DNA from: Pseudomonadota bacterium
GTDB lineage: Bacteria; Myxococcota_A; Bradymonadia; UBA4248
NCBI GenBank assembly: GCA_017441205.1
Contig: JAFRYG010000020.1
Span: 1-57,915, forward strand
DNA length: 57,915 nucleotides
Direction: 5' to 3'
The notes under the pieces were generated by a model. The model was given only the letters and a program-made list of their open reading frames with translations, did not search any database and was not told the origin of the DNA. Position 1 is the stretch's first letter. Each line of letters opens with the position of its first letter. The translations under genes and the position numbers were made by a program. This document shows positions 6,299 through 57,639 of this stretch, one piece after another.

Positions 6299-8866
6299 CT
6301 ATTTCTGAGGTGTTGCCTTCAGACTGGCCTTACCCTCTTTGACATAGACAGTAAAACGAACTGTACGGCATTTATATGTCTTGATCAGACGTTCTTTTTC
6401 GCGGGCAAGACGACTCACAAACTGTTCCTGCGTAAACTTGTTCGTCGATTCACCGCACTGTTTCTGAAGTTCGATGTATTTTTCATAGAGTGACTTAAAA
6501 TACTCATTATCCGAAAGCGGATCAATATCAACCCGACTGCCGGTTACCGAAAAGACACCGGATCGCGATAAACCACGGTTATATTCAAATGCTCCGGAAT
6601 TCGCTCCAGCCTGGTCCTTTTTAACTTCCGCCGCTGCCATATCCAGCTCAGAAACATCCTTCGCACGCCGTTTAAGGGCATTGTACAGCGAGTTCTGATC
6701 AACACCATCCGATGACAAGGACTTTCCTGTCCATGATGGGGCGGGTTTAAAGGATTCATCCGCCTTTTCGACATAGGCTGCAGTCATCGGCTGCATCGTA
6801 ATCCCGGGATTATTTTCCATGGATTGCCCCATTGCCGTCGGCGCACTGCGATGCTCTCCGCTGCCTCCGGGGGTCAGAGTCGTATTGCCGGAATCATTCG
6901 ACTTGGATCCCATAAAAGCTGTGGATGTCTGCGATGACTTTGACTTGTTGGTTGAATTAAAGGAACCAATCCCAAAAAGTGTATTGCGGCGCATATTGGG
7001 CTCAACCGCCACTTTCTGCTGAAGATTCGGAACTGTTTTCAGCGTCGGAACGCTCTTCGGACTCAAAGACGGGATACTCGCCAGCGTCGTTTTCTTTACG
7101 CCTGAAGGTACTGATGACATACCCTGGAAGGTATCTTTCGGCAGCGATGGCGCATCTGATAACTCTGCTTCCTGACGTATATCATCCTCATTAAGCATAT
7201 TGAGGAACTCTGAAATACCATACGAACGCTCATTGCCATCTTCGGCACCCTCGGCATTCTTCGAATCAGAACCATCTCCCTTGTTCGCAGGCTTGGTAAA
7301 TATGGCATCAAAACTCTCAGCAATCTCATCCCAGCCATCGTCACTCAATGCATCAAAAAATGCCTGGGATTTTTCTTTCGAAGTCAGCTCTTCTATACCA
7401 TCATTGGTGGCCTGCGCCGTCACGCGGTTCGTTTCGGTCGTCGGATGACTCAGATCTTCTGTTTTCTTTTCTGTACTGTCCGGAATTCCAGCCTGCGGAA
7501 CATTGGGAATATTCGAATTCGATGAACCGGCTGTGAATTTAATCGGACTTTCAACCACTGTTTGCTGCTTTTTATTCGCTGCAGCCGCATCTTCAAGACG
7601 TTTGTTATCCTCCGCCAGACTCATGCGCATCAGCTGCTCTTTCTGATAATCCGCCTTCGCGGAATCGAGCTCATCCTGAAGCTGTTTTACTTTTTCAGAG
7701 CTTTCCTCTGCCTCTTTTTTGAGCTTTTCGACTTCCGCACCGAGTTCATTCTTTTCGCGCAATGCATTGATGCGTTCTCGCTTGACGTTGTCGTACTCTT
7801 TGCGCAAAGCATCCATTCTTTCGTCGGTATCCGGCTGCTCTTCTTTGCGGCGCGTACAGACAAATCCCAACAGTATCATCAGCAAGCCTGCACCAATCGA
7901 CAAACCTATTGCCTGAAGAGAGTAAGAATCTTTTTTGACGATCGGTGTATCACCCACGACCAAAGCTGCAGGCTCCTGCGTTCTGACTGCAGCCTCTGCA
8001 TAAGACACCAGCTCACACGATGACTTCAGACCTTTTCTGACAAATTTCCAGGTTTTGCCATTTGCTTCCACAATACCGGAATCCGCCTGCTGCGTCTTTA
8101 TTGCACTCAGTATCGCCGTTCGTGCATCGTCGAGAGAACAATCCGATGCCCCAAACAGTGCAACCGAATTGGCCGCCACACCACCGCACGTAAAGAACTC
8201 CTTGTCCGCCATCTCACACCGGGCTTCGACAGGAAATTCAGCAGGAAAATCAAAGGTCATCCCGCGTTCGGCCAAAAGACACTTTTCCGCATCATCATCC
8301 AGACAATACCACGCATAACGCATGGCTTTATCCCCGGCTATCCTGTACTCCAGGCCGCTTTTCTGATTGCCTGCCGAACGGATTTTTTCCATCAGTTCAA
8401 GTGCCGCATCCTCTTCTGCACTCTCCACCACTTTTCCATTCCTGAGATCGACGATCGCAAGCGTCCTGACCTGCTTGAATGCATCCAGTTTCGCCATCGC
8501 AGCCAATGCATTGACCTTATCGCCGTCTGCTTTCGTCTCGGGAACATCCATCAGAGGCACGACATCCGGTGTCGCAAGCCGGATTCTGACTCCATCATCG
8601 GGCTCCAATGCCCCAGAAATGCTGTCGTCTGTACCAGCCCCCAGCATATCCGCATTCAACTCGTCATCACCGGCATCGATCAGAGCTGCGACACTCTCAT
8701 GAAATGCAGGCTCCCCACCTTCATCTGCTATCTTTTCAGTCGGCTGACTGACCGGTTTGGGTTCCGTAACCTGATGATTATCTGCAGCAAGTCTGGGCAT
8801 CCCGGCCCATACAGCCACGGAAGCAACAACACCTGACAAAATAATATAAATACAACGCTTTAACAT
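6299..8866 (-). CDS. Large membrane protein with periplasmic sensor-like part, coiled coil and MXAN_5187-like C-terminus
   Basis: 855 residues. An N-terminal hydrophobic segment (about 4-22) is followed by a probably periplasmic region of about 290 residues with a cysteine-containing alpha/beta part, a second membrane helix at about 316-338, a long charged coiled coil (about 345-425), a low-complexity Ser/Thr/Pro/Asn-rich region (about 430-760) and a compact C-terminal domain (about 770-855) ending VRFTVYVKEGKASLKATP. That ending resembles the MXAN_5187 C-terminal domain of myxobacterial proteins; this rests on memory of the motif. The topology is that of a chemoreceptor-like sensor without a methyl-accepting or kinase module. 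Hairpins separate it from murJ upstream and a terminator follows. No reaction can be assigned. Confidence 0.6.
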   Translation of the reverse strand: MLKRCIYIILSGVVASVAVWAGMPRLAADNHQVTEPKPVSQPTEKIADEGGEPAFHESVAALIDAGDDELNADMLGAGTDDSISGALEPDDGVRIRLATPDVVPLMDVPETKADGDKVNALAAMAKLDAFKQVRTLAIVDLRNGKVVESAEEDAALELMEKIRSAGNQKSGLEYRIAGDKAMRYAWYCLDDDAEKCLLAERGMTFDFPAEFPVEARCEMADKEFFTCGGVAANSVALFGASDCSLDDARTAILSAIKTQQADSGIVEANGKTWKFVRKGLKSSCELVSYAEAAVRTQEPAALVVGDTPIVKKDSYSLQAIGLSIGAGLLMILLGFVCTRRKEEQPDTDERMDALRKEYDNVKRERINALREKNELGAEVEKLKKEAEESSEKVKQLQDELDSAKADYQKEQLMRMSLAEDNKRLEDAAAANKKQQTVVESPIKFTAGSSNSNIPNVPQAGIPDSTEKKTEDLSHPTTETNRVTAQATNDGIEELTSKEKSQAFFDALSDDGWDEIAESFDAIFTKPANKGDGSDSKNAEGAEDGNERSYGISEFLNMLNEDDIRQEAELSDAPSLPKDTFQGMSSVPSGVKKTTLASIPSLSPKSVPTLKTVPNLQQKVAVEPNMRRNTLFGIGSFNSTNKSKSSQTSTAFMGSKSNDSGNTTLTPGGSGEHRSAPTAMGQSMENNPGITMQPMTAAYVEKADESFKPAPSWTGKSLSSDGVDQNSLYNALKRRAKDVSELDMAAAEVKKDQAGANSGAFEYNRGLSRSGVFSVTGSRVDIDPLSDNEYFKSLYEKYIELQKQCGESTNKFTQEQFVSRLAREKERLIKTYKCRTVRFTVYVKEGKASLKATPQK

Positions 8867-9036: not shown

Positions 9037-10827
9037 TCATCTTTTTAAACGCCCGGGCAGACGACGCCTGATCTTCGACAAAAATCCCATAAACTCCTCA
9101 GGAATCAGGAACCGGGCAAAAATACAAACCAGACATACACCAATACATCCCGGTATCCCAAGTTCAAGCAGAACTTTCCACAAATGAGATTCCATCTGGA
9201 TCTGCCGGACCAGCCAAAGTCCGCCATAACTTCCAGCTGCAGCAATGAGACCAAAAACAATACCCGTCCCCATCGCCCGAACGATCTTTAATGGCTTAAA
9301 ATGCACATTCCGTCGATGATAGAAAATGACAATAGAGGAAGCCTGCATCGCCATACCAATACACGAAGCCAGTGCCAGCCCCGGCAACCCCATCCACTGA
9401 CTCAGAAAATAATACACCGGCAGCGATATCAGAGTCACTATCGTCGTCAGAATCATCGGCGTCAATGTATTCTGGGCAGCATAAAATGCACGTACACTCA
9501 CCATCTGAATCGTCCAGAAAACGATCGAAATCGCCAAAATCCTCAGGATCATCGCAGTCTTCGCCGTATCTTCCGCACTGAACGCTCCCCGCTCATACAC
9601 GATCGAAACCATGGGTTCTGCCAGAATGACGAAAAATCCAACCATGATAAGCGATAAAATTACGACATTTCTCAAGGTCTTGTGAAGCGTCGCCGCCGCC
9701 GTATCAAATTCACCGCGCGCAGAAAGCTGCGACAAATACGGCAATGCCGCCTGACCAGCTGCCTGGCCCACAATCGCTATCGGAACGAGTACCAGTCGAC
9801 GGGCATAGTTCAGCCAGCTGATCGAACCGGCCTCCATATTCGACCCCAAAAACTTCCCCACCCATTCATCGACTGTCGTCAGGCTAGCCCCGATCATCAG
9901 GGGCAGTGTCAAAAAGATGTACTTCTTAAAATCGCGATCCCCAAATCCAAATACGGGACGATATCTCAGCCGGGATTTCAAAAACACCAGCGGAAGCAGG
10001 AATGGACCCAAAACGGCACCCAAAAGCGCACCAATCGCAAATCCCTGCATCCCAAGCGTCCCCCCAAGAACAAGACCGCAAATGATGATGAGCAAATTGT
10101 AAATCAAGGGCGCCATCGCCGAAGGCAAAAACTGTCCCTGGGCCATCAGTACAGCCATCATCAGACCGCCCATATAATGAAAAAACTGTCCCGGCAATAT
10201 GATGCGCGTCATCGATACGGTATTCGCAATCTGTTCCGGACTAAAACCGGGAAACAGAAGCTGCGCCAGCGGTGTCGCAAAACTCCAGCAAAGAATAATC
10301 GCTGCCACCAAAAGCGTCCCCATCGTCGTCGCAATCAGCGAAAATAATCGCTCAGCACGTTTGGGCTCATTTTTGCTCAAATATCCGGCAAACAGAGGAA
10401 TAAATGTAATCGACAGCGTCCCGCCGGCAAGAAAATGATTCATCATATCCGGCAGCAAAAATGCCGCATTGTAGGCATCCGTCTCGGCCCCGGCACCAGC
10501 CTGGTAGGCAATCACCGCTTCGCGTACATACCCAAGCAGACGCGAACACATGATGCCCATCGACAGAATCAGAGCAGCCAGACCGACGCGTTTAACTCGC
10601 GTCTGAACACTCGGTTCTCCGGAATCCTTTACCTGCGTTTGCTCTCCCTCAGGCTTATCCGCCGGCGCCTCATCGCCTGATAAATTCTCAGACTCCCCCT
10701 CACACTCAGGCTTATCCGCCGGCCCATCATCGACTCGCAAATCCTCAGACTCACCCTCAGAACCTGAATTGATTCCGCCGCTCTCGCCGCTCATTCCAAC
10801 ATCCGTGTTTTTTTCTTCTTTTGCCAT
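9037..10827 (-). CDS. murJ: Lipid II flippase MurJ with acidic N-terminal extension
   Basis: 596 residues. The MATE/MOP-fold core (about 75-590) has the family's multiple membrane helices and conserved segments such as SRLLGYVREAVIAYQ, FLLPDMMNHFLAGG and SITFIPLF. MurJ moves lipid II across the inner membrane for peptidoglycan synthesis. Ahead of the core lies a hydrophilic acidic stretch of about 75 residues with repeated DKPECEGESENL-like units, absent from ordinary MurJ; it should be cytoplasmic. The gene starts 4 nt after the stop of the preceding anchored-exoprotein gene, which itself overlaps the tandem-pseudokinase gene, so the three form a tight operon. The context suggests that MurJ is controlled by pseudokinase binding. 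Confidence 0.9.
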   Translation of the reverse strand: MAKEEKNTDVGMSGESGGINSGSEGESEDLRVDDGPADKPECEGESENLSGDEAPADKPEGEQTQVKDSGEPSVQTRVKRVGLAALILSMGIMCSRLLGYVREAVIAYQAGAGAETDAYNAAFLLPDMMNHFLAGGTLSITFIPLFAGYLSKNEPKRAERLFSLIATTMGTLLVAAIILCWSFATPLAQLLFPGFSPEQIANTVSMTRIILPGQFFHYMGGLMMAVLMAQGQFLPSAMAPLIYNLLIIICGLVLGGTLGMQGFAIGALLGAVLGPFLLPLVFLKSRLRYRPVFGFGDRDFKKYIFLTLPLMIGASLTTVDEWVGKFLGSNMEAGSISWLNYARRLVLVPIAIVGQAAGQAALPYLSQLSARGEFDTAAATLHKTLRNVVILSLIMVGFFVILAEPMVSIVYERGAFSAEDTAKTAMILRILAISIVFWTIQMVSVRAFYAAQNTLTPMILTTIVTLISLPVYYFLSQWMGLPGLALASCIGMAMQASSIVIFYHRRNVHFKPLKIVRAMGTGIVFGLIAAAGSYGGLWLVRQIQMESHLWKVLLELGIPGCIGVCLVCIFARFLIPEEFMGFLSKIRRRLPGRLKR

Positions 10828-10831
10828 GATA

Positions 10832-11671
10832 TCAGTCTTTTGGTCGCTTCAGATCATCGACATCCAGATCCAACTCCGGATCATCGCTGTGATCAGCTGC
10901 ATCTATCTGCATCTGCATGCGGATATCTTCTTTCTTTTTCTGCGCACGCCTGATCTGCGACATCACACTCAACAGCAAAATGACAAATGCCGCAAAAATG
11001 CCACCTATCCACAACGCCTTCGGCATCAGAGACAATGTCCCCTCAGGATGCACGGCAGAATTCCCCTCCGGTACAACCGGTTTCTGAAAAACCTGAATAT
11101 CAGAAATCAGATGATCCATCAAAAGTGTATATATCTTAACGGATTCTTCACCTTCCATCGGAAGATAGATAAAAATCTGCGCAAGCTTATCCCCCGCAGG
11201 AATCAGAATCGAAGTCTGACGAATCGCCGAATCCCTGAGCGCAGGAATATCATTCATCGTTCCATCCCTGCGTTCGATCTCCATCAATCCCAGCAATGGT
11301 TCAGTCTTCAAAACCCGGGACTGCATGACATGTACCCTCGGAATATTGCGCAGAGCTGCCTCGGAATCCTCCAGATGACGTTCCAGCAAATCCTCGCTTC
11401 CCAGCGCATATCCCGGATGAACCGTCACAAAGACAACCCCCAGTTCGCCGCGCTCTCCCACCTGAAAACAGCCATCCTTAACGGAATGCGATTTCAAAAA
11501 CGGCACACATTCGCTGCGTTCAAGATCTGCAGGCCACGTCACCGAAAATGCATCTTCATACCGAAAAGACTGTGCATTGGCTTCCCTGATTCCAAAGCAC
11601 GGAATCATGCCCGTCACAATTCCCCAAAAAACAGAAATGCCTATGCATAATGACCAGATTCTATTTCGCAT
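10832..11671 (-). CDS. Secreted, C-terminally membrane-anchored protein of the murJ operon
   Basis: 279 residues, not recognised. A signal peptide (about 1-33, cleavage near ANA/QS) is followed by an extracytoplasmic domain of about 185 residues with two cysteines, a single membrane helix at about 222-242 (IGGIFAAFVILLLSVM) and a short cytoplasmic tail that is first basic (RRAQKKKED), then acidic. Its ATG lies inside the end of the tandem-pseudokinase gene (11-nt overlap) and murJ starts 4 nt after its stop, so all three are probably translated together. A role linking envelope status to the pseudokinases or MurJ is inference from context only. Confidence 0.65.
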   Translation of the reverse strand: MRNRIWSLCIGISVFWGIVTGMIPCFGIREANAQSFRYEDAFSVTWPADLERSECVPFLKSHSVKDGCFQVGERGELGVVFVTVHPGYALGSEDLLERHLEDSEAALRNIPRVHVMQSRVLKTEPLLGLMEIERRDGTMNDIPALRDSAIRQTSILIPAGDKLAQIFIYLPMEGEESVKIYTLLMDHLISDIQVFQKPVVPEGNSAVHPEGTLSLMPKALWIGGIFAAFVILLLSVMSQIRRAQKKKEDIRMQMQIDAADHSDDPELDLDVDDLKRPKD

Positions 11672-13871
11672 TTCCGGGAACTATCTGATGATAAACAATA
11701 TAAAGATCGCGCAGCAAATCCGAAAAACGAACATATCTCTTCGTGGGATCAAATGCTGTACACCATTGTATTAACTGAACGAGTTCTGCCGGCACATCAC
11801 TGCGCCAGGTACGTATATCCGGAACTCCCTCATAACTCAGTATTTCTGCAACCAGTCCATTGTTGGTTTGTGCCTCATAGGGAAGCGCCCCCAAAAGCAT
11901 GAAGTAAAGACACATCCCAAAAGCATATATATCCGTCTGGGCATTGGCATTCTGAAGATTATACCCCAAATCCGGCGCAATAAATGGTATTTCATCAATA
12001 TCAAACCGATCTATGGAATTCAGATAAAGCCTCTGACCAAAATCAAAAATGACCGGCGTCAATACACCTGACTGATTCTCAAACAGAATATTGTTTGGCT
12101 TCAGATTGCCATTCACAAATCCACTCTGCTGAGCCACTTCCATGGCCTGGGCAATCAGAATCGCAATATGCAGCGCGATATCAATCGAAATGACGCCATT
12201 TTTCCGCATAAATCCCGCCAACGAATCGCGCGAAGTATCGGTATACAGAAAAGCACACGATTCCGGATATCGGGTCAGAATACCTTCAAAAAATGGATTA
12301 TTGTCCGAAAGTATTTCTGCACGGCGGACGCCTTCATTAAACACAGCCGCTTCGATCTCGCTGCGGGCAAAAAAACATTTGATGCCAAATAATACATCCG
12401 GACTCTCAAACGATGCGACTGCCCCCAAAAAACCACGTTCCGAAATATTGTCTACACGCTGAAGAAAATAAGTAGATGCCAGTTCCTGAGGAAGATCAAC
12501 GCCAAAAGTCGGTTTCTGGCTGGCCGACGCCTGTACGTCTGAAATCAGAATGCTCTGCGAAACCGAAGATGAAAGAGGAGGATTGACGGCTATCTGTGAC
12601 GAGGGTGCAGCAATGGCACCAGACGGCTGTCTCGAACTCACCGCAATGGCCTGAACAACCCCGGAGTCACTCTGCGGATATCCACTCTCGACGACATCCG
12701 AAATCACAATCGGTTTCGAAGGCGTCATCGCATTTTGAGGATAGCTCCCCGTCGAAGCTCGGACGACCGTAACGGGCTTTGAAGGCGTCATCGCATTTTG
12801 AGGATAGCTCCCCGTCGAAGACCGAACGACCGTAACAGGCTTCGAAGGCGTCATCGCATTTTGGGAATAACTCCCCGTCGAAGATCGAACGACCGTAACG
12901 GGTTTCGAAGGTGTCATCGCCTTTTGAGAATAGCTCCCCGTCGAAGAACGGACGACAGTAACGGGGTTGGATGGCGTCATCGCCGCCATCTGCGGATGGC
13001 TTTTTGAGGCTTCGATCGTCAGGTTTGCACTGAGTTTATATGCTTCCCCTAGCTGCTTTAATACCTTGAGTACACCGCCGGCATTTTCATACCGCTCATC
13101 CGGATTCGTCCTCAGCCCCTTTTGAAGCAGCGGAACAAAATCCTCCGGAATAAAATCCGACATTTCCTCTATGCCATCGTGCATGGCATAGTACATCTGA
13201 TAATCGCAGAACGAATCAAACTGAACCGGCGGCCGATGCACAAAAGCGTAATATATCGTCGCACAAAGCGCATAAACATCCGACACCGGTGTTGCCTTGA
13301 ATCTCGGATCAAATTGCTCCGGCGCCAAAAAAGGCAGACTGTCTGTCGGACTCAGCGATGTCACATCGCGCTGAATCGAAAAATTCAAAAGGCGCGGAGA
13401 AAGGCGCTTCCCCTGCGGATTGAGCATGATATTGTGCGGCGAAATCTCATTATGAACCATCCCGCCGGCATGGGCCATCGAAACCGCATCGACAATCCCC
13501 AAAAACAGCTCAATGACTTCTTTTGCCGAAATCTCTGCTTCGCGCAGATACCTGTCGAGCAGCATGCCCTCCAGATACTCCATCACCGCATACACATTGC
13601 CATGACGAAGCTCAATGTTCGACACATGGACGATGTTCGGATGATTCAGGCGCGCCTGCACGCGAAATGAGCTGACAAACTGCGCACGTCGGGCCTCCCA
13701 GTCCGGCTCTCTCTCATCCCCCAAAAGCATCTTGATCACACCACTCACATCGAGCCGGGTGTCAAAACACTTCATTGTCGCCGTCTGGTTACCGACACTG
13801 AGGATTTCTTCGATGTAGTAGCGATCCGACAGGATATCGCCCACTGCAGGAACAGATTGCATATGCGTCAC
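11661..13871 (-). CDS. Tandem pseudokinase protein upstream of murJ
   Basis: 736 residues with two kinase folds, both predicted inactive. Domain 1 (about 18-275) keeps the ATP lysine K47 and APE-like LAPEQ, but the P-loop reads SVGNQT, the catalytic loop is HNEISPHNIM instead of HRDxKPxN, and DFG is NFS (163-165). Domain 2 (about 465-730) keeps lysine in FGIKCF and DFG, but the catalytic loop is NGNLKPNN, losing the HRD aspartate. Between them is a Ser/Thr-rich linker with five 21-residue repeats. There is no membrane helix, so it should be cytoplasmic. GTG 13871 or ATG 13862 could be the start; neither has a clear ribosome site. It probably acts as a phospho-independent scaffold or a target of active kinases. 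Confidence 0.8.
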   Translation of the reverse strand: MTHMQSVPAVGDILSDRYYIEEILSVGNQTATMKCFDTRLDVSGVIKMLLGDEREPDWEARRAQFVSSFRVQARLNHPNIVHVSNIELRHGNVYAVMEYLEGMLLDRYLREAEISAKEVIELFLGIVDAVSMAHAGGMVHNEISPHNIMLNPQGKRLSPRLLNFSIQRDVTSLSPTDSLPFLAPEQFDPRFKATPVSDVYALCATIYYAFVHRPPVQFDSFCDYQMYYAMHDGIEEMSDFIPEDFVPLLQKGLRTNPDERYENAGGVLKVLKQLGEAYKLSANLTIEASKSHPQMAAMTPSNPVTVVRSSTGSYSQKAMTPSKPVTVVRSSTGSYSQNAMTPSKPVTVVRSSTGSYPQNAMTPSKPVTVVRASTGSYPQNAMTPSKPIVISDVVESGYPQSDSGVVQAIAVSSRQPSGAIAAPSSQIAVNPPLSSSVSQSILISDVQASASQKPTFGVDLPQELASTYFLQRVDNISERGFLGAVASFESPDVLFGIKCFFARSEIEAAVFNEGVRRAEILSDNNPFFEGILTRYPESCAFLYTDTSRDSLAGFMRKNGVISIDIALHIAILIAQAMEVAQQSGFVNGNLKPNNILFENQSGVLTPVIFDFGQRLYLNSIDRFDIDEIPFIAPDLGYNLQNANAQTDIYAFGMCLYFMLLGALPYEAQTNNGLVAEILSYEGVPDIRTWRSDVPAELVQLIQWCTAFDPTKRYVRFSDLLRDLYIVYHQIVPGNAK
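12700..12990 (-). repeat. 63-bp tandem repeat inside the tandem-pseudokinase gene
   Basis: The word GGCGTCATCG (GGTGTCATCG once) recurs exactly every 63 bp at 12721, 12784, 12847, 12910 and 12973. Units are nearly identical at DNA level and encode MTPSKPVTVVRSSTGSYSQ-like 21-residue blocks rich in Ser, Thr and Pro. This suggests recent expansion by slippage or unequal crossing-over and a flexible, possibly phosphorylated linker. Confidence 0.9.
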
Positions 13872-16366: not shown

Positions 16367-16888
16367 TCAGTCAAAAACAGGCTGATAATCCACCTGCCGC
16401 AATGCCTCATACAAGCCGATCGCCGTCGATACCGCCAGATTCAGGCTCCGTATATTGTCCTTGCGAATCGGCAGCGTCACGCACTGCGATTCAAAACGCA
16501 TCCGGATGGGCTCGCTCAGTCCGCGCGTCTCCGGACCAAAAATCAGCGCATCCCCAAGCGCGTACTGCACCTGCGTAAACTTGCGCGTCGTCTTCGTCGT
16601 AAACAGATGCATCTTCTGTGCAGGGAAAAGCGCCATTATCTCGTCGAACGACTCATGAACGGAAAGATGAACATTCGGCCAGTAATCCAGCCCGGCACGC
16701 TTCAGCTTCGTGTCGTCCAGCTCAAATGCCAGCGGCTTGACCAAATGCAGATGCGTCGCCGTTCCGGCGCACAAACGCGCAATCGTACCCGTGTTGGGCG
16801 GAATCTCGGGCTCCACAAGCACCACATGAAAATGGCGATCTGCCGGCGTACCAGTCTCGGGAGAAGGCGGAAAAATAGGAATACTCAT
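16367..16888 (-). CDS. trmL: tRNA (cytidine(34)-2'-O)-methyltransferase TrmL
   Basis: SPOUT-family methyltransferase of 173 residues. Family segments include FHVVLVEPEIPPNTGTIARLC near the N-terminus, LIFGPETRGLSEPI in the middle and a knot region LPIRKDNIRSLNLAVSTAIGLYEALRQ at the end. TrmL methylates the wobble ribose of certain tRNA-Leu. I place the start at ATG 16888; an upstream in-frame ATG at 16954 would add 22 residues derived from low-complexity repeat DNA, and neither has a clear ribosome site. The ruvA gene is downstream on the same strand. Confidence 0.88.
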   Translation of the reverse strand: MSIPIFPPSPETGTPADRHFHVVLVEPEIPPNTGTIARLCAGTATHLHLVKPLAFELDDTKLKRAGLDYWPNVHLSVHESFDEIMALFPAQKMHLFTTKTTRKFTQVQYALGDALIFGPETRGLSEPIRMRFESQCVTLPIRKDNIRSLNLAVSTAIGLYEALRQVDYQPVFD

Positions 16889-18124: not shown

Positions 18125-18277
18125 GCTCGCCTTGGCGCGTGTCACGACACGCGCCTACTGCTCGCTTGCGCCCGCTATCTGCGATACGCGGGCGGGAACT
18201 GTTTGGGGCTCGCCTTGGCGCGTGTCACGACACGCGCCTACTGCTCGCTTGCGCCCGCTATCTGCGATACGCGGGCG
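18125..18277. repeat. Two tandem copies of an 83-bp composite inverted repeat
   Basis: Units start at 18125 and 18208. Each has a first inverted repeat, arms GGCGCGTGTC / GACACGCGCC around AC, then a second hairpin, CGCCCGC, TATC, loop TGC, GATA, unpaired C, GCGGGCG (18169-18194 and 18252-18277). The second hairpin is a member of the window-wide bulged family. It fills most of the gap between two 3' gene ends. Confidence 0.9.
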
Positions 18278-19424: not shown

Positions 19425-19577
19425 GCTCGCCTTGGCGCGTGTCACGACACGCGTCTACAGCTCGCTGGCGCCCGCTATCTGCGATACGCGGGCGGGAACT
19501 GTTTGGGGCTCGCCTTGGCGCGTGTCACGACACGCGCCTACGGCTCGCTTGCGCACGCTATCTGCGATACGCGGGCG
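19425..19577. repeat. Two tandem copies of the 83-bp composite repeat (gap 19322-19637)
   Basis: Units start at 19425 and 19508, the same 83-bp period as at 18125. Base differences include GCGTCTACAG for GCGCCTACTG and CGCACGC for CGCCCGC in one arm. They lie between the start of the DUF1016 gene and the 3' end of the VapC-like gene. I see nothing else in this 316-bp gap. Confidence 0.9.
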
Positions 19578-54878: not shown

Positions 54879-57428
54879 TCAACGAATTACAGGCTGCGAC
54901 CGATACATCGGCGCAGAATACATTTGCGGCCAGTCATCGATCCAGTCAATGCGATCGACAGCCACGACGCGCTTTCCGCCATTATTATATCCGACAGCGC
55001 CTTCTATCCATGTATGATAGATGTGGAACCATTCTCCAGATGGCGCCTGAAGTACGGATCCATGTCCCGGTCCCTGGAAATGGCCCTGGGAGTGCAGAAT
55101 AGATCCACTGTGTTTTGTATATGGCCCAAGAAGCGATTTTGACCGGGCCACGCCAACGGCATATCTTGATGAAGCATATCCATTGGCACTATAGAATAAA
55201 TAATAATATGAACCGCGCTTTATCAGCCATGGACCTTCGATGAGCGATCCTTCCCAGTTCTGATCATTCGTCAAAATCTGCGTCGGTTTGCCCACGAGCG
55301 AGAGTCCGTCTTTGGTCAGTTCCTGAATAAAAACAGGTGTTTTTTTGCCCAAAGCATTGCCGTCATCTTTCCACAATACATAATTTTTACCATCACTGTC
55401 GGTAAAGTGACTGGCATCAATGACGCCAACATTATCCTTGCATACGAGCGGTTGTCCTTTATCTTTATATGGCCCAGTGACTTTATCGGAAGTTCCGACA
55501 CCGACACAGTATCTGCCCGTATTTTTGTTTCTGACGCTATAATATATATTATAGTGATTATCTACTTTATGAAGTTCAGGTGCCCAGAAATTATCTTTTG
55601 CCCAGGATGGACCGCTGCCATTTTTGAAGGCATAACCGACATTTGTCCAATTGACCAAATCCTTGGAAGATCTCATGTAATACGCATCAGTCGTATTTCC
55701 GCCCGTCCCGACGACATAATATGTACCGTCGACGAGAATCGCCCCGGGATCCGGGAAATCTGAGGGAATCACGGGATTCAGGAACAATGGTCCGCACTGG
55801 GTATAACGAAGTGCCATTTTACAGGCTCCGCTAAAATAGGGTGTCCAGCCATTCGAAAGCGTGACGTGATCGCCGGAACACAGACCGCTCCAGGTGACGA
55901 CACCTTTGACATCATCGTAATAATTGGTGTTGCCAGGTGCAGGTTTCCAGTTGGAGTTGTATTTGACGCGCGTTCTGCAAACATTGTCTTCGCCGCAATT
56001 ACCTGTGTAATTGAGAGAAATCAGGCAGCTGTACCCCTTAAAGTACGGCTTCCACCCATTCGAGAGCGTCGCATAGGAATTGCCGCCCTCTTCCTGACAA
56101 TTGCCATCCCACGTTACCTTGCCGTCCACTTCATCTACATTGCTCGGATGGTTTGGCCCATGGTTCCACGTCGATCCATATTCTATCCGCGTATGGCACG
56201 GCTTGACACATGCGGAAGTATTGAGTGAGCAATCGGCATTGCAGCTCAATGCTTTTCCGGAGGGCAGTTCAGTTCCCGACGGACACTTGGCATTATTGAG
56301 ATTGGTGCCGTCACAGGCTTCGCCCTCGTCGATCTGACCATTGCCGCACCGCGTACATGCGTCTGTATTCAGCGTGCAGTCACTGCGACAGCTCAGGGCA
56401 GTTTCTTTGGGCAATACCATTCCATCCGGACATGCAGCCCCCTCGGGCATCGACGTTCCATCACAGACTTCGCCTTCATCGATCTGACCATTGCCGCATC
56501 GCGTGCAGGCATCTGTATTCAAAGTACAATCACTGCGACAGCTCAGGGCAGTACCTTCGGGCAGAATCATTCCCTCCGCACAGGCCGCCCCTTCAGGCAT
56601 CAACGTACCATCACATTCCTCGCCCTCATCGATCTGACCATTGCCGCACTGCGTACAAACATCCATCCCCAGCGAACAGTCCGGCTGGCAGGTTATCTGC
56701 ATCCCTTCGGGCAAAAAGAAGCCCTCCGGACATGAAACATCTTCCGGCAGCAGCTCGCCATCACAGGTTTCTCCCTCGTCGATCTGACCATTGCCGCACT
56801 GCGTACAAACATCCATATCCAGTGAACAGTCCGGGCGACAGGTTATCTGCATCCCTTCGGGCAAAAAGAAGCCCTCCGGACATGAAACATCTTCCGGCAG
56901 CGATTCACCGTCGCAGGTTTCTCCATCATCAATCTGACCATTGCCGCACTGCGAACAGGCATCTGTATTCAGCGAACAATCTGAATTGCAGGTTATATCC
57001 ATGCCTTCCGGCAATACAGTATTCCCCGGACATGCGGCTTCGCCGGAAATCAAATCACCGTCACATATTTCACCTTCATCCAGCTGCTCATTGCCGCACT
57101 TCTGCCCATCACCCTGTTTTTGAGGATCCTGCTTTTCGGGATCCTGCTTTTCGGGATCCTGCTTTTCGGGATCACTTTTTTTGGCACAATCCGAAACATC
57201 GAGTTTACAGAGCTCAGTACACACAATGTTTTTTCCGTCAGGCAACGACATTCCCTTCGGACATGAGGCATCTTCAGGAAATTCCGAACCATCACATTCC
57301 TCTCCATCATCCAGCTGGCCATTGCCGCACAATTCCGTGCCCGTTGCCAGAATATCGTTCGAACAAGCCGGCAAAACCACGAATGACGCACACAAACACC
57401 CCAATGTCATCCATCGATGCTTTCTCAT
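54879..57428 (-). CDS. Cys-rich repeat lipoprotein with C-terminal GH43 arabinanase-like domain
   Basis: 849 residues from ATG 57428 (GGAGGG nearby). Signal peptide with lipobox LPAC; seven myxobacterial-type Cys-rich repeats (CGNGQIDEGE-CDG ... C---C-LN-D-C) interrupted after the first by a DPEKQ linker; two related beta modules of about 60-70 residues (TRIEYGSTWNHGP and TRVKYNSNWKPAP), perhaps carbohydrate-binding; then a GH43 five-bladed propeller with DFPDPG (base Asp, about 557), VIDASHF (about 670) and IEGPW (acid Glu, about 731). Predicted surface enzyme acting on arabinan or arabinoxylan; substrate is inferred from family. Confidence 0.88.
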   Translation of the reverse strand: MRKHRWMTLGCLCASFVVLPACSNDILATGTELCGNGQLDDGEECDGSEFPEDASCPKGMSLPDGKNIVCTELCKLDVSDCAKKSDPEKQDPEKQDPEKQDPQKQGDGQKCGNEQLDEGEICDGDLISGEAACPGNTVLPEGMDITCNSDCSLNTDACSQCGNGQIDDGETCDGESLPEDVSCPEGFFLPEGMQITCRPDCSLDMDVCTQCGNGQIDEGETCDGELLPEDVSCPEGFFLPEGMQITCQPDCSLGMDVCTQCGNGQIDEGEECDGTLMPEGAACAEGMILPEGTALSCRSDCTLNTDACTRCGNGQIDEGEVCDGTSMPEGAACPDGMVLPKETALSCRSDCTLNTDACTRCGNGQIDEGEACDGTNLNNAKCPSGTELPSGKALSCNADCSLNTSACVKPCHTRIEYGSTWNHGPNHPSNVDEVDGKVTWDGNCQEEGGNSYATLSNGWKPYFKGYSCLISLNYTGNCGEDNVCRTRVKYNSNWKPAPGNTNYYDDVKGVVTWSGLCSGDHVTLSNGWTPYFSGACKMALRYTQCGPLFLNPVIPSDFPDPGAILVDGTYYVVGTGGNTTDAYYMRSSKDLVNWTNVGYAFKNGSGPSWAKDNFWAPELHKVDNHYNIYYSVRNKNTGRYCVGVGTSDKVTGPYKDKGQPLVCKDNVGVIDASHFTDSDGKNYVLWKDDGNALGKKTPVFIQELTKDGLSLVGKPTQILTNDQNWEGSLIEGPWLIKRGSYYYLFYSANGYASSRYAVGVARSKSLLGPYTKHSGSILHSQGHFQGPGHGSVLQAPSGEWFHIYHTWIEGAVGYNNGGKRVVAVDRIDWIDDWPQMYSAPMYRSQPVIR
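57120..57180 (-). repeat. 15-bp tandem repeat coding the DPEKQ linker
   Basis: GGATCCTGCTTTTCG repeats four times with small changes, encoding (DPEKQ)n between the first and second Cys-rich repeats. Likely length-variable. Confidence 0.85.
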
Positions 57429-57639
57429 AATCCCTCCCTCTGCTGTCATTTGATAACCATAACTAAATCTGATGCCAGATACATCAACCGCCGCAAAACA
57501 GAACCGCTCACTCGCTATTCATTGTTTCAGGCACACAGATATTAGCATCTTATTTGCAATCGTGGGGGGAAATTTCGATTTAAATATCATTTGGCATGTT
57601 TCACGATATTTCTGAATTTCCACGAGGGATGCCAGAATC

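Follow-up and report, generated by a model that had tools for sequence, protein, structure and literature searches.

What a kinase-like protein without its catalytic residues does when it is encoded beside the lipid II flippase MurJ is the question raised by a locus on contig JAFRYG010000020.1 (57,915 nt; assembly GCA_017441205.1) of a Pseudomonadota bacterium (GTDB lineage Bacteria; Myxococcota_A; Bradymonadia; UBA4248), which was analyzed at full length and is referred to here as the window. Three consecutive genes on its minus strand (9037-13871) encode a tandem pseudokinase (PK), a membrane protein with a single helix (exo), and MurJ, and a first-pass annotation of the window had taken them for a split analogue of actinobacterial MurJ–pseudokinase control. 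The reading that we favor, with a probability of about 60%, is that PK and exo constitute a two-gene module specific to this lineage, in which PK probably serves as a membrane-associated scaffold. According to reviews, a role is known for very few bacterial Ser/Thr pseudokinases (PMC12599244), and a literature search turned up no bacterial tandem pseudokinases. The constant membrane partner exo offers a direct handle on the function of PK.

PK is encoded at 11661..13871, exo (279 aa) at 10832..11671, and MurJ (596 aa) at 9037..10827. These coordinates and lengths, the 11-nt overlap of PK with exo, and the 4-nt gap between exo and murJ were confirmed on re-reading the annotated window. The 736 residues assigned to PK hold for the frame counted from GTG, but translation probably starts at ATG 13862, giving 733 aa, because in all relatives the first residue is the Met corresponding to PK residue 4. 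The genes were compared in a family set of eight members (the window genome, G000, and its relatives G001-G007) and in G008, the sole genome of a second family of the same order in the comparison.

Both kinase domains of PK matched the Pfam Pkinase profile PF00069 (6.3e-38, in two stretches), and no domain beyond these two was found with Pfam. The closest sequence relatives were PknB/StkP, and the structure model matched PknB/Stk1 in Foldseek (E ~1e-10), with the N-lobe of the N-terminal domain modelled at low confidence. By profile match and two-lobed fold, PK has the Hanks-type Ser/Thr kinase fold. The N-terminal domain (13059..13850, minus strand; residues ~8-271) carries HNE in place of HRD and NFS in place of DFG, and the C-terminal domain (11682..12506, minus strand; residues ~456-730) carries NGN and retains DFG; this motif reading agreed with the annotated absence of the HRD Asp from both folds and of DFG from one.

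The losses recur throughout the family. In the N-terminal domain, all eight members have Lys47 (the VAIK Lys), the DFG Asp is replaced by Asn in 8/8 (motif NF(S/G/A)), the helix-C Glu is replaced by Ala or Ser in 8/8, and the HRD Asp position reads E/R/G/Q/Y/S/S/N. In the C-terminal domain, Lys498, Asn594, and Asp610 are each invariant (8/8), as is the substitution of the catalytic Asp by Asn589 (8/8). Neither domain of PK thus combines an HRD Asp with a DFG Asp, as at least one domain of an active Ser/Thr kinase would, and the HRD Asp is missing from both domains in all eight members. Judged by these residues, the two domains have lost catalysis by different, mostly fixed routes: metal binding is gone and the base has drifted in the N-terminal domain, and the nucleotide-binding residues are kept in the C-terminal domain. 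Among the approximately 50 kinases of the genome, PK is the only protein in which both kinase domains lack the catalytic Asp. Each clear domain of the other kinases read retains the catalytic Asp and the DFG/DLG Asp, which argues against chance loss in PK; the exception is a weak N-terminal stretch in L012. That protein (L012:1501-3486; G000:C152, ~33.5-35.4 kb; 662 aa) joins the degenerate N-terminal kinase stretch to an intact C-terminal kinase and is another pseudokinase–kinase tandem.

The freely drifting HRD Asp column of the N-terminal domain would suit a kinase gene decaying without a role, but the frames are open in 8/8 family members and both domains hold invariant positions. In the closest pair, in which dS is near saturation, the two PK domains had dN/dS values of 0.05 and 0.09. 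These values indicate that PK is under purifying selection and, because they are low, that it is not decaying; we regard decay as highly improbable. The invariant Lys, Asn, and DFG Asp of the C-terminal domain (8/8), with the catalytic Asp fixed as Asn, also raised the possibility that this domain has some other ATP-dependent activity, for instance AMPylation, without an HRD Asp. SelO retains a comparable set (Lys, Asn, and Asp without the HRD Asp) and AMPylates (PMC12599244). However, no sequence link of PK to SelO was seen, and the pattern also fits simple ATP binding, so that this alternative appears improbable.

PK and exo are neighbors in 9/9 genomes (the window and 8/8 relatives, including G008), mostly at a spacing of -11 to +7 nt. 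A signal peptide and a single helix (219-237) were predicted in exo, in line with the membrane-anchored exoprotein of the first-pass annotation, and the predicted topology is that of a type-I inner-membrane protein, with a periplasmic domain at residues ~35-195 and a 42-residue cytoplasmic tail; this tail ranges from 9 to 65 residues across relatives. No convincing Pfam match was found for any of the nine exo members, NCBIfam gave none for the window exo, and when solved structures were searched by sequence with the exo profile, only chance matches over the helix were obtained. The AlphaFold model of the exo domain (mostly pLDDT 83-96) matched PsbP/CyanoP/Mog1/DcrB/LpqN in Foldseek (E 4.6e-6, probability 1.00, target-normalised TM 0.60), and the predicted model thus has the fold of the PsbP/Mog1 superfamily. 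The best of these matches share 13-15% identity with exo, and exo differs from them in being anchored by a C-terminal helix.

The exo family is present in 9/9 genomes of the order. Seven closer members were used for genome scans, the alignment of all nine being too divergent for this purpose. Among 284 Myxococcota searched at E 0.001, just one weak partial match was obtained outside the order, in the helix region, and at E 0.01 three similar weak matches were observed in the class. By these searches, exo was convincingly found in no Myxococcota outside the order.

The link to murJ is looser. Exo and murJ are adjacent in five genomes and apart in three (adjacent in 4/6 resolvable family relatives); the state in G005 could not be read because both contigs end there. 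The first-pass annotation had made conservation of the three-gene order a test of the MurJ link. The operon-like order found in the window recurs in G002, G004, G006, and G007 and is broken in two genomes of the same genus, G001 and G003, as well as in G008, and because exo and murJ lie apart in these three, the test went partly against the link. In G001, murJ remains near ruvB, and the CxxCxxCC–PK and PK–exo pieces are located on other contigs. For comparison, among the resolvable family relatives, ruvB adjoins the CxxCxxCC gene in 3/6 and murJ adjoins the gene for an 855-aa protein in 2/5, and exo–murJ adjacency is at or slightly above this local background. As PK–exo is constant (8/8 relatives) and exo–murJ is near the level of other local neighbors, the strong link is PK–exo, and the specific tie of the pair to MurJ was not supported. 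The 855-aa protein (6299-8866), which has an MXAN_5187 C-terminal domain (NF041621), adjoins murJ in the window, G004, and G005. A homologue of the protein at 54879-57449, which has 150-bp repeats at 56311-57100, lies downstream of murJ in G001. A class-wide murJ–kinase link was also considered and rejected. In 20 genomes outside the order, a kinase was present within ~6 kb of murJ in four, which we estimate to be about chance given the kinase density, and at least two of these kinases are convergent to murJ.

Regulation of MurJ was nevertheless weighed as an explanation: PK and exo would gate the flipping of lipid II by binding to MurJ and would correspond, divided over separate genes, to the mycobacterial MurJ pseudokinase. 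The PK–exo–murJ order in five genomes is consistent with it, since two of them (G006 and G007) belong to other genera and have a wider synteny changed on at least one side, and the exo–murJ spacing is short in 4/5 (4, 15, 48, and -4 nt). MurJ itself was identified by PF03023 (2.4e-74) and by TIGR01695 (297.1 bits, cut-off 235.55) and is the only copy found in the genome; in all eight family members, it has a tail 48-87 residues long. The tail is kept in two members with PK located elsewhere, and its sequence is not conserved. The extra acidic tail that had been annotated is present in the window (22 acidic and 6 basic residues in positions 1 to ~76), but it sits at the N terminus, and acidity is not kept throughout (G003: 7 acidic, 9 basic). 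With murJ separate in three genomes and an adjacency no better than that of other neighbors, we consider this explanation unlikely. If it were true, pseudokinase control of lipid II flipping would have evolved more than once.

The mycobacterial system gave a further comparison. There, the MviN/MurJ pseudokinase (ActPs3) has none of VAIK, HRD, and DFG left (motif columns VALT/Lsidhpsr/Y--), cannot bind ATP, and is fused to MurJ; once phosphorylated by PknB, it recruits FhaA (PMC12599244, PMC6180346). PK resembles it as a catalytically depleted kinase fold linked to a lipid II flippase, the role of MviN being non-catalytic recruiting. In contrast to the single fused domain of MviN, PK is a separate tandem gene that is not always beside murJ, and it keeps Lys47 and Lys498 together with the Asn and DFG Asp of the C-terminal domain, so that the joint loss of motifs that marks ActPs3 is absent. 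No fusion to a pseudokinase was found in the window MurJ, in which the TIGR01695 match covers residues 84-579 of 595 and the protein ends shortly after. A genome scan gave one PASTA match, in a 303-aa frame, and 26 FHA matches. With differing motifs, no fusion, and no evident PASTA kinase, the proposed analogy to actinobacterial control is a loose one. By analogy, PK could still act like MviN as a phosphorylated recruiter, which is conceivable because its linker is Ser/Thr-rich with a 21-aa repeat and the genome has 26 FHA matches. The linker comprises 164 residues (35 Ser and 14 Thr), the repeat being encoded by a 63-bp tandem repeat of 4.3 copies (12715..12983, minus strand). Just past the N-terminal domain, the segment KLSANLTIEASK (LSANLT; residues 279-290; 12999..13035, minus strand) is conserved within the family and absent from G008, and it is a candidate docking or phosphorylation site.

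PK may alternatively be a dead partner that dimerises with an active kinase, activating or restraining it, with exo as the sensor. The genome holds approximately 50 active kinases, the PK folds are PknB-like, and the pseudokinase domain of MviN dimerises back to back, as some active kinases do (PMC12599244). PknB/StkP/Stk1 are the best sequence and structure matches of PK, from which PK differs in having no membrane helix, no PASTA domain, and no catalytic Asp in either domain. No active kinase was a constant neighbor, and the kinase located at 3 kb in the window was seen in the same stretch only in G004; we regard this alternative as less likely than not.

A history for PK was suggested by G008, in which a tandem kinase-fold protein is directly followed by an exo homologue. 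Its N-terminal domain is intact (Gly loop, Lys, Glu, HRD, and DFG), and its C-terminal domain is dead (HGH and DFD). In the kinase tree, the G008 C-terminal domain groups with the family C-terminal domains at 99/96, and the N-terminal domain is compatible with, and not firmly joined to, the family N-terminal domains. As the N-terminal domain of the sister family is an intact kinase, the simplest history is that an active kinase joined to a pseudokinase probably came first and that N-domain catalysis was lost later. One lineage would thus show the step from a kinase-plus-pseudokinase to a fully dead double kinase. Among close relatives, the records mention water buffalo rectum and roe deer omasum, and this Myxococcota lineage appears to be partly gut-associated.

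In the two-gene module that we favor, PK would be the catalytically dead descendant of an active kinase–pseudokinase protein, paired with exo. Exo would be exported and anchored in the inner membrane by one helix, with its PsbP/Mog1-like domain facing the periplasm, and the cytosolic PK would be its partner at the membrane, a scaffold without enzymatic activity that possibly responds to nucleotide. The Ser/Thr-rich linker and the LSANLT segment may serve other kinases and FHA proteins as docking or phosphorylation sites. Where it is co-transcribed with murJ, PK may tune lipid II flipping, with murJ not a constant partner. A bolder version, in which the C-terminal domain of PK senses ATP without transfer and, with the PsbP-like receptor, sets MurJ activity in this family, a control that would have arisen independently of that in actinobacteria, the active ancestor being visible in the sister family, appears quite unlikely to us.

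Pseudokinase scaffolds at the membrane are known from other systems. In Myxococcus xanthus, EcpK is a cytosolic tyrosine pseudokinase scaffold of an envelope pathway, with EpsV as its inner-membrane partner with a periplasmic domain (PMC12004946), and a pseudokinase scaffold with an inner-membrane partner thus occurs in Myxococcota. EcpK differs from PK in its bacterial tyrosine kinase fold, unrelated to the Hanks type, and EpsV is a polysaccharide co-polymerase. EssB/YukC of type VIIb secretion is likewise a pseudokinase scaffold at the membrane (PMC12599244), whereas it sits on its own membrane helix as part of a secretion system. PK showed no link to the COG3899 ATPase domain that defines the CP1 pseudokinases (PMC12599244).

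Several points weigh against the module as we propose it. In three relatives, the exo cytoplasmic tail has only 9-12 residues and therefore offers little surface for PK binding. The active ancestor is postulated from one genome, with an N-terminal domain that is compatible but not firmly grouped. PK could still have some activity, because some kinase-fold proteins without the HRD Asp, such as SelO, have other ATP-dependent activity (PMC12599244). Finally, we infer the continuity of PK in G001, G002, and G004, because PK is split there over two contigs at the repetitive linker. Linker repeats differ in other species, and it is at the linker repeat that the contigs of these three genomes break.

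Upstream of PK on the same strand are the gene for a CxxCxxCC protein (PF03692; 13948..14532), ruvB, and ruvA, and the gene at 16367 is, judged by its position, probably ruvC. The CxxCxxCC gene adjoins PK in 6/6 resolvable family relatives and was not seen beside PK in G008; upstream of PK, it is a more constant neighbor than murJ is downstream. Promoter and terminator scans gave no excess, or hardly any, over shuffled sequence, and a search for RskA_C was negative. PADLOC matches to PD-T4-6 and mad6 were rejected, as every kinase in the window hits these generic kinase models, with no match for exo. Elsewhere in the window, two near-identical copies of an 83-bp tandem repeat (18125-18277 and 19425-19577) surround a gene-sized interval.

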